64,000 nucleotides of DNA from Protonemura montana (Eukaryota > Arthropoda > Insecta > Plecoptera > Nemouridae), in assembly GCA_947568835.1 (NCBI GenBank), contig OX387605.1, forward strand, positions 7,444,418 to 7,508,417. The letters run 5' to 3'. The notes beneath the pieces are model-generated. The model did no database searches, was not told where the DNA came from, and worked only from the letters and a program-made list of their open reading frames with translations. Positions 34,059 to 36,886 of this stretch are shown here, piece by piece (position 1 is the stretch's first letter; the number at the start of each line of letters is the position of its first letter). The position numbers and the translations under genes are program-made.

Positions 34059-36886
34059 ATGGATGATGAAGCGGAGACATATAAATTGTGGCGGATAAGG
34101 AAAACGGTTATGCAGGTAAACATAGGTGCCATATAACCATCCCCTTTTGCTCAATCAAACAATTCTTTTCTAGCACAACATTTTTAGGGTTATAGTTGAC
34201 TGTGAAAATATACTCAAATAATAATAATAATAATAATAATAATTGTTTATTCATAGCTCAGAAGCCAATTACATAATTACAATTACACAAAATTATATTC
34301 TTCAATCATCATCAAATTATAATCTTAAATCATCAATCATAATAATACTTACTACCATTAACTTCGTCTCTTCGTTCGAACGCTTTTCTAGCTGTGTCAC
34401 GACCGAGGGTACCTTGTAACTCAGGACGAGTTAGATCAAACTCTAGAACAATTCAAGGAGCAGTTCGGGGACAAGCCCAGTGAAAAGCGTCCAGCTAGAA
34501 GTGATCTTATCGTCCTTGTTGCGCACAACGACGATCCTACAGGTACCACCTACCTCATCTGTCTCATGTGATTTTGTTCACAATTTTGCCTAAATGTATT
34601 ACGGGCTGAATTAGATTTTTAGGATTTAGGGTGTACATACACTTACGCTGTATCCTTGTCTTACAATGCATTACATGTTAAATCATTTTACAGATCAAAT
34701 GTTCGTGTTTTTTCCTGATGAGCCAAAAATTGGAATAAAAACCATCAAAACATACTGTCAAAGAATGCAAGAAGAAAACATTCACCGTGCCATCATTGTC
34801 GTCCAGCAAGGCATGACACCATCAGCCAAACAATCGCTTGTTGATATGGCACCAAAATATATTCTAGAGCATTTCTTGGAAGCCGAATTGCTAATTAATA
34901 TCACAGAACACGAGCTTGTACCAGAGCACGTTGTCATGACACCTGAGGAGAAGCAAGAACTACTCCAGCGATAGTATCCTTTCAGAATTTGTGTGCTCCG
35001 TTTATTGCATGCGAGTTTGTGTTTTTGTCTGCAGACCTAGTTGTTAGGTACTACAAAATTCTAGTCTGAGATACTTATTTGATTGATATCTCAGCCTTTT
35101 TGTCTTGTTAAAAACGAGGCAAGATGGAATACCTACGTTGAATATAATTTGCTAGCCTACTTTAAATGCAGTTCCATACTGTAAAACAGCTGCATAATCA
35201 ACATAAAAATAGTCAAAGATTGACCTTAACTGAACACAATTTGAAGTATCTCTTTGAGAAGATGCAAGCAAAATGTGTGTGTTTTTTAGCTCAAATTTAC
35301 AGCGCTGAAACATGCAAAATAATATGTCTACATAGTCAAAGTTCAATTTTACAATGTAAGTTTTCTATGCTGTACATGCTTTTGATAATAACTAATCTAA
35401 CAGACATGCGTGTGGTTTGCCTTAACACTACATTTAGTAAACTAAAAGAATACCAGCTGATGAGGATACAGGCTGGCGATCCCGTCGCCCGTTACTTCGG
35501 ACTCAAGCGAGGACAGGTAACGCCATTTGATGCTAGCTCGTACAAATTATGATCTCTCTCTAGCTTCATCACTCTGTAAATGTGCCTCACTTTCTGGTGT
35601 GGTGCACAACACATTTAGTAGGTTCGTCTATGATAGATGAACTGTGGTGAAGAGGAAAGAGGGGAACGCTCTTTCGCTCAAAATACCGTAGAATTTTTTC
35701 AGATTAGATGATTGGTCAGTAATCTATCTCACAGAACAAGGCGGCAGCAGACACTTTTAAACCTCTGTGTATTTGTTGCAGTCGTCCACTTGTACCTCTG
35801 TACGTTGTGTTCTCTTTCCTTTTCCCCAGTTCACGTACCATTTACCACCATGTAAGTTTGTCTTTTAATCTTCAGTTTAGTGGTACGAACATAAGTGGGT
35901 TTTCTAATAGTGATCTGTTTGTAATGTGTTATAATTTTTAGCAGTGCACATTTCTTATGTTTTCCTTGACATTGTTAGTAAACTGAAAGAGGGTTATCTT
36001 CCTCGAATTCAAACGGGGGATCCAATCTGCCGCTATTTCGGGCTCCGCAGGGGCCAGGTAAAGCAATGCACGGCATGGTGTTCTTTGCACCCCTTTGAGA
36101 CGCTGCATTGCATTTGTCTTAAACGTCTTGCTACCTGATTCACTTTTCTGGATTGCCAAAGTTCTAGCGCTGCAAACAGTTTTGACCCAGCTTAGCTGTG
36201 GGCTGTCATCTGCGATTTCATGTTCTTGTCTACTGAATGAGATTTCTCTCTGTCAGTTGAAATAATATTTTCACACAAAGTCCCTTTGATTTTGTCGAGT
36301 TTGAACTTTGAAGTGTGATGTGTGGCCCCCAATCCTTGGGTTTTTCCTTGTTTGGCATATTTTTGTGACCTTTGTGTTTATCCTGACTGGGACTGAAGTG
36401 TCCGCTAGCTTTTCCATTTTTTTCTTAGCCTGATTCTCTGTCTTGGGTTATTTTTATAATAAATATTTTCAGATTAAAGGTTTTCTATCAGCATTCTGTG
36501 TTCGTTTTGCAGCCCTGGACTTTTCTTGGAGACTTGATTCGATGACTCGATGATTCTTTCCAGTCCCTAATCAGTAGTTTTTCCTTCTAGCTCTTCTTTT
36601 CAAATAACTTCTTTCATATATTACTGATATTTATTCAAGCTAGGTGCACCAAGGGCATTCTGAGAGGGGGCAATTTTTTCCCATTGCAAGCATACAAACT
36701 GAAATTACCACCAATCTTCTTTTTGAAATTGTTTTGTTAACTAATCCATAGTGTCCATCCAACTAATCCATCCATGACAAGTCTAACATAGGCACTTTTC
36801 ACCAATGTATTTTTTTTCAGGTGGTGAAAATCATCAGGTCTTCAGAGACTGCTGGACGATATATCTCATACCGGCTGGTATGCTAA
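34059..36886 (+). CDS. POLR2E: DNA-directed RNA polymerases I, II and III subunit RPABC1 (RPB5), with two alternative exons 4 (210 aa)
   Basis: Coding exons: 34059-34115, 34392-34542, 34694-34973, then either 35438-35516 (4a) or 35979-36057 (4b), then 36821-36886. Phases 0, 1, 2, 0 close with either exon 4 and give 210 aa, identical to human RPB5. The N-terminal jaw domain begins [14 protein letters not shown]. The middle has [19 protein letters not shown] and the [12 protein letters not shown] helix. The C-terminal assembly domain has [16 protein letters not shown], the exon-4 segment with RIQ, GDP, RYFGL and RGQ, then [23 protein letters not shown]5 is shared by all three nuclear polymerases and contacts downstream DNA. 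A polyadenylation signal lies at 36956-36961. Confidence 0.95.
34217..34243. repeat. AAT microsatellite in RPABC1 intron 1
   Basis: About nine AAT units in tandem. Confidence 0.9.
35438..35516 (+). other. RPABC1 alternative exon 4a
   Basis: It is flanked by CATTTAG and GTAACG and is 79 nt long. It completes the split Tyr codon and encodes [11 protein letters not shown] and [14 protein letters not shown]. It is the closer of the two versions to vertebrate RPB5, except that Met replaces the usual Pro of the LPRIQ motif. Confidence 0.85.
35979..36057 (+). other. RPABC1 alternative exon 4b
   Basis: It is flanked by TTGTTAG and GTAAAG and is also 79 nt long with the same entry and exit phases. 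It encodes [11 protein letters not shown] and [14 protein letters not shown]. It keeps the Pro of LPRIQ but has Ile-Cys where nearly all RPB5 proteins have Val-Ala. Many third-position changes relative to 4a indicate an old duplication kept under selection. Confidence 0.85.

Follow-up and report, generated by a model that had tools for sequence, protein, structure and literature searches.

Can a single gene supply an insect with two forms of a core subunit of RNA polymerases I, II and III, and what would keep the two forms apart? The core subunits that Pol I, II and III have in common are usually regarded as constant within any one animal. The window (the whole 64-kb stretch of Protonemura montana DNA analysed here) holds a single RPB5 (RPABC1) gene at 34059-36886 on the + strand, for which the initial annotation had described two versions of exon 4, each 79 nt long, with the same phases and completing the same Tyr codon. 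Reading of the exons and frames confirmed this description and gave the following coding parts.

34059..34115, + strand: RPB5 exon 1, from the start codon to CAG/GTAAAC
34392..34542, + strand: RPB5 exon 2, by frame reading
34694..34973, + strand: RPB5 exon 3, ending in CGATA; PF01191 match in the genome search
35438..35516, + strand: RPB5 exon 4a (usual arthropod form), U2-type donor GTAACG; PF01191 match
35979..36057, + strand: RPB5 exon 4b (variant form), U2-type donor GTAAAG; PF01191 match
36821..36886, + strand: RPB5 exon 5 with the stop codon, acceptor apparently U2-type; PF01191 match

Exons 4a and 4b lie next to each other, are homologous and agree in length and phase; both are preceded by AG and followed by GT, and the Tyr codon opened by exon 3 (TA/) is completed by each alike. 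With either one the gene encodes a complete protein of 210 amino acids ending in SYRLVC before the stop codon. Joint inclusion and joint skipping are both non-productive: the junction reads CAG/TAA when 4a and 4b are both included and TA/G when both are skipped, so that a stop codon arises at once in each case, as expected from the proposal that either outcome would break the frame.

Comparison of the two exons over 27 codons, including the shared Tyr, found 7 amino-acid differences (the number originally reported), 13 synonymous differences and 7 identical codons, with 20 of the 27 residues equal. By the Nei-Gojobori method pS is 0.96 (saturated) and pN is 0.21. Hence the likeness of 4a and 4b is neither a chance match nor an assembly duplicate, and the copies are old and constrained. 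Together with the intact frames, these values uphold the view that both versions have been kept in frame for a long time.

Residues 1-210 of the 4a form align over their full length with 9mu7_E, a solved RPB5 (E 3.9e-130), and this protein reads the same 20-residue stretch in the exon 4 segment as the 4a form. A profile search of the genome (258.5 Mb in 34 contigs) placed PF01191, the C-terminal domain, above cut-off on exons 3, 4a, 4b and 5 of this gene; these four exons are its only matches across the 258 Mb, and no second RPB5 gene or retrocopy was found by that domain. RPB5 is thus single-copy as far as the C-terminal domain shows.

The surroundings of RPB5 gave several separate observations. 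Upstream, at 31843-33076, a glutathione peroxidase gene of the phospholipid-hydroperoxide type is present in full, with five coding exons. Among the best 120 of its 7995 matches, the closest insect at full length is Cryptotermes (74% identity), partial matches reach at most 77% (Gryllus, Bacillus rossius and one unnamed source), the next matches are from a cockroach, mayflies and other orthopterans, and the two highest scores belong to plant proteins of greater length (61% and 52%). Between this gene and RPB5, at 33100-33840 on the - strand, a small thioredoxin-fold (nucleoredoxin-like) gene was recognised by eye; the one ORF tested there gave no Pfam match. Just downstream of RPB5, 38683-45984 consists of three head-to-tail copies of a unit of about 2.43 kb that are 99.9% identical, and none of the six short ORFs examined had a Pfam match. 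A 5S rRNA match at 50446-50564 scores 38.5 bits against the Rfam cut-off of 38 bits; near it lies a repeat, 50531-50874, which recurs inverted at 22428-22778 with 81% identity. Our guess is that the 5S match is possibly a 5S-derived mobile element.

We compared 172 RPB5 proteins, namely the best 120 of 1655 matches and 52 new ones among a further 68. Residue counts cover 168 of 169 listed homologues, P0002, P0003 and P0121 having been left out beforehand as 4b-bearing and one protein dropped for its short alignment; P0109 was counted by its 4a segment. The initial annotation had held that each form alters a near-invariant position, Met replacing Pro in LPRIQ of 4a and Cys replacing Ala in DPVARY of 4b. 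At the first of these sites Pro occurs in 105 and Met in 63 of the 168 listed homologues, and the listed proteins with arthropod names have Met except for two barnacles (P0024 and P0025) and the 4b-type forms. Met for Pro is therefore ruled out as a sign of functional change, and since Met is normal in arthropods, 4a represents the ordinary arthropod form, 4b being the variant. The other half of the claim stands: the Cys of DPICRY is found in none of the 168 listed homologues (Ala 153, Ser 14, Thr 1). The neighbouring Val-to-Ile change is also rare (Val 164, Ile 3 and Met 1 of the same 168). The Pro of 4b is the residue of most other animals listed, reflecting either a reversion in 4b or a duplication that predates Met. 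P0162, from a non-animal transcriptome source (mmetsp), matches 4b at four of the seven positions, so some of the changes can arise independently.

The original proposal included a search for the same pair in related species, and 4b-type segments indeed appear in predicted proteins of four other insects. The signature P..T..I(C/S)..R (Pro, Thr, Ile, Cys or Ser, and Arg at the diagnostic places) was found in 4 of the 172 listed RPB5 proteins, three directly and one in a shifted frame, all being database gene models. Three cases are direct: Lycorma delicatula isoform X2, whose 210-aa protein is complete and includes 4b; Anabrus simplex isoform X2; and one Ladona fulva gene model in which 4a is followed by 4b. 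Because clustering of the database at 90% identity hides isoforms, other species for which no 4b is listed may still have it. Identities out of 26 residues are 21-24 between 4b segments, 25-26 between 4a segments and 17-21 between 4a and 4b, ranges that touch at 21; the segments group by exon type more than by species.

The fourth case is isoform X1 of Schistocerca americana (P0109), in which 4a is joined directly to a 4b-type segment in a shifted frame. Read in frame +1, its tail is codon-compatible with a 26-residue 4b-type sequence, as were 0 of 20000 shuffles, and with RPSETA the remaining protein fits as far as the stop, whereas RSSETA fails. The tail is incompatible with the usual 4a sequence, 4a residues being excluded at all five diagnostic places, and also with P. 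montana 4b, in which the variable GY/NQ place reads differently. This reading is compatible but not unique, as several residues fit most places and Cys and Ser are indistinguishable. The join, which a strict incompatibility of splice-site classes would not allow, may reflect leaky exclusion in the locust or a wrong gene model.

The four species belong to the Hemiptera, the Orthoptera (two) and the Odonata. The split of Odonata from Neoptera lies at the base of the winged insects, roughly 400 million years ago, and from this distribution the exon pair is probably older than the main split of winged insects.

What, then, would make the choice of exon exclusive? We scored the splice sites by their match to consensus strings, RTATCCTTT for the U12-type 5' splice site and TTCCTTRAC for the U12 branch site. 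Three sites stand out.

34974..34982, + strand: U12-type 5' splice site GTATCCTTT, common to both forms; 9/9 to RTATCCTTT and 3/9 to the U2 consensus
35418..35426, + strand: U12-type branch site of 4a, TGCCTTAAC; 8/9, branch A at 35425, 13 nt upstream of the exon's first base
35962..35970, + strand: U12-type branch site of 4b, TTCCTTGAC; 9/9, branch A at 35969, 10 nt upstream of the exon's first base

Across the window, the + strand has no 9/9 U12 match other than the donor GTATCCTTT, and the - strand has one; the four other RPB5 donors match 3-5 of 9 positions as U12 and 6-7 of 9 as U2. As background for the branch sites, 33 of 3364 + strand AGs reach a score of at least 8 and 5 of 3364 reach 9. 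The acceptors of exons 2, 3 and 5 score 5, 6 and 6, the two commonest scores; at exon 5 (best match 6/9) a T-run precedes the CAG. By donor and branch site the intron ahead of exon 4 looks U12-type and the intron after it U2-type, whichever exon is used. Each exon 4 thus has a U12-type site on one flank and a U2-type site on the other, as judged from these consensus strings. The classes cannot be distinguished by pyrimidine content (0.63 for the acceptors of 4a and exon 3, 0.69 for those of 4b and exons 2 and 5), and consequently the 4b acceptor may also be open to U2-type use.

The Ladona gene model bears on the same point. Its read-through before 4b can encode TTCCTTRAC with a branch distance of 11 nt; among controls, the same is possible for 30 of 53972 windows and for 139 of 20000 random peptides.

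Genes for minor-spliceosome RNAs, namely U12, U6atac and U4atac, are present in the genome. The U12 RNA gene is on the reverse strand of its locus: a forward-strand search of the locus for GTAAGGAA gave no match, and ATGAGTAAGGAAAA, the sequence responsible for base-pairing to branch sites, was read by eye in the reverse complement. U4atac RNA has two matches above cut-off in the genome (L007 and L008, 74.9 and 65.2 bits).

Collectively, the intact frames, the saturated synonymous change, the non-productive double inclusion and double skipping, the U12/U2 layout and the 4b-type segments of four insects support a functional, mutually exclusive exon 4 pair, the exclusivity in P. montana itself being deduced from sequence. 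We propose that exon 4 of a single RPB5 gene was duplicated in tandem along with its U12-type acceptor. The U12-type donor of exon 3 would then find a compatible partner only in 4a or 4b, whose acceptors are U12-type, and the chosen exon, with its U2-type donor, could in turn be spliced only to exon 5, whose acceptor is U2-type. Joining 4a to 4b would require a U2 donor to be used with a U12 acceptor; joining exon 3 to exon 5 would require the opposite combination, the donor being U12 and the acceptor U2. Since both wrong joins mix U2 and U12 sites, neither should be spliced. The outcome would be one-or-other splicing and two RPB5 proteins of 210 amino acids that differ at seven residues in the C-terminal assembly domain. 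We consider it very probable that this duplication, with U12/U2 incompatibility imposing the choice, accounts for the locus. Both forms would then be made in P. montana, and the incompatibility of site classes would enforce the choice.

Three sources treat U2/U12 incompatibility as an accepted cause of mutual exclusion (PMC3584512, PMC5740500, PMC3585155), PMC3585155 listing it among the mechanisms. In human mutually exclusive exons it accounts for 5 cases, or 0.79% of 629 clusters (PMC5740500); these belong to the same enforcement class as the RPB5 pair. Mouse Polr2e is among the genes named as having U12 introns in PMC7312986, the position not being given there.

Other ways of accounting for exon 4b carry much less weight. 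It could be a regulatory exon, with 4a and 4b competing for the single U12 donor and the premature stop of a 4a+4b product tuning the level of RPB5 through nonsense-mediated decay. The stop at the junction on double inclusion fits such a role, as does the Schistocerca X1 model, which joins 4a to a 4b-type segment with a shifted end. A pure poison exon, however, has no need of an in-frame RPB5 segment, 21-24 of 26 residues are kept among the 4b-type segments of three insect orders, and the full 210-aa Lycorma X2 protein carries 4b; we therefore regard this account as unlikely. That 4b is a leftover of duplication, spliced seldom if at all and intact in appearance only, is more improbable still, given saturated pS against a pN of 0.21, an open frame with both splice ends intact downstream of a 9/9 U12 branch site, and the occurrence of 4b-type segments in other insects.

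The exclusion might instead be set by competing RNA structures in the introns or by protein repressors, the U12/U2 layout being incidental. The site classes alone do not set the 4a:4b ratio, for which a regulator is still needed, and the failure of pyrimidine content to distinguish the acceptor classes is in keeping with this alternative. Yet only two inverted repeats were found in the 1847-nt RPB5 region (26 nt at 73% and 17 nt at 88%, in a search that would miss gapped or weaker pairings), unlike a set of docking site and selectors, and the site classes would by themselves forbid both wrong joins. We give this alternative little credence. Steric exclusion is also unlikely, as 462 nt separate the two exons. 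Enforcement by incompatible U12 and U2 sites thus stays our preferred reading.

The JNK1 and JNK2 genes, MAPK8 and MAPK9, provide a close comparison. Their mutually exclusive exons lie around a U12 intron (PMC3584512 and PMC6717393), and as in RPB5 the intervening hybrid intron pairs incompatible U12 and U2 sites. In JNK the 5' site of the hybrid intron is U12 and its 3' site U2 (PMC3584512), whereas that of RPB5 is the mirror image, U2 at the 5' end and U12 at the 3' end; the JNK-type layout is therefore not that of RPB5, in which, unlike JNK, the U12 donor sits in the upstream constant exon. The Drosophila prospero twintron is likewise an insect case in which a choice of U12 or U2 splicing gives two protein forms, but there one intron is nested in another, whereas RPB5 has duplicated exons (PMC3584512, PMC8199999 and PMC6865273). 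Plant NRPE5 and trypanosome RPB5z also give an organism more than one form of RPB5, by separate genes in plants and by paralogues as described in trypanosomes (PMC8721170 and PMC6690254); in P. montana, with one RPB5 gene by PF01191, both forms would come from that gene by splicing. We found no prior description of the RPB5 exon pair in the accessible literature on mutually exclusive exons of Rpb5, its alternative splicing in insects and minor (U12-type) introns of POLR2E, in which subscription journals are thinly represented.

Through its C-terminal assembly domain, RPB5 binds to a bundle of helices in the largest subunits of Pol I, II and III (PMC6690254). A predicted structure of the Lycorma 4b form has a mean pLDDT of 91 and adds little information beyond the fold; in this model the two rare changes of 4b are residues 179 and 180, on a short helix (178-183). 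The simplest guess is that 4b would fit one largest subunit, or assembly factors, differently. On our reading, the exon pair was probably already present in the ancestor of winged insects, and the two forms may differ in assembly or in choice of partner.

The conservation of the pair suggests that such insects make two forms of a universal polymerase subunit. A conserved RPB5 exon swap would mean that two polymerase compositions are built from one insect gene, and the minor spliceosome would be needed for either form. It would also be a clean natural case in which an exon duplicated with its U12 acceptor yields mutual exclusion without an added regulator. We put forward, tentatively and with some doubt, that winged insects ancestrally have two RNA polymerase populations differing in one shared core subunit. 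In this view the 4b form would be tissue-specific or favour one of the three polymerases, and the ratio of the forms would be set by the minor spliceosome. If this is true, minor-spliceosome activity would be linked directly to polymerase composition.
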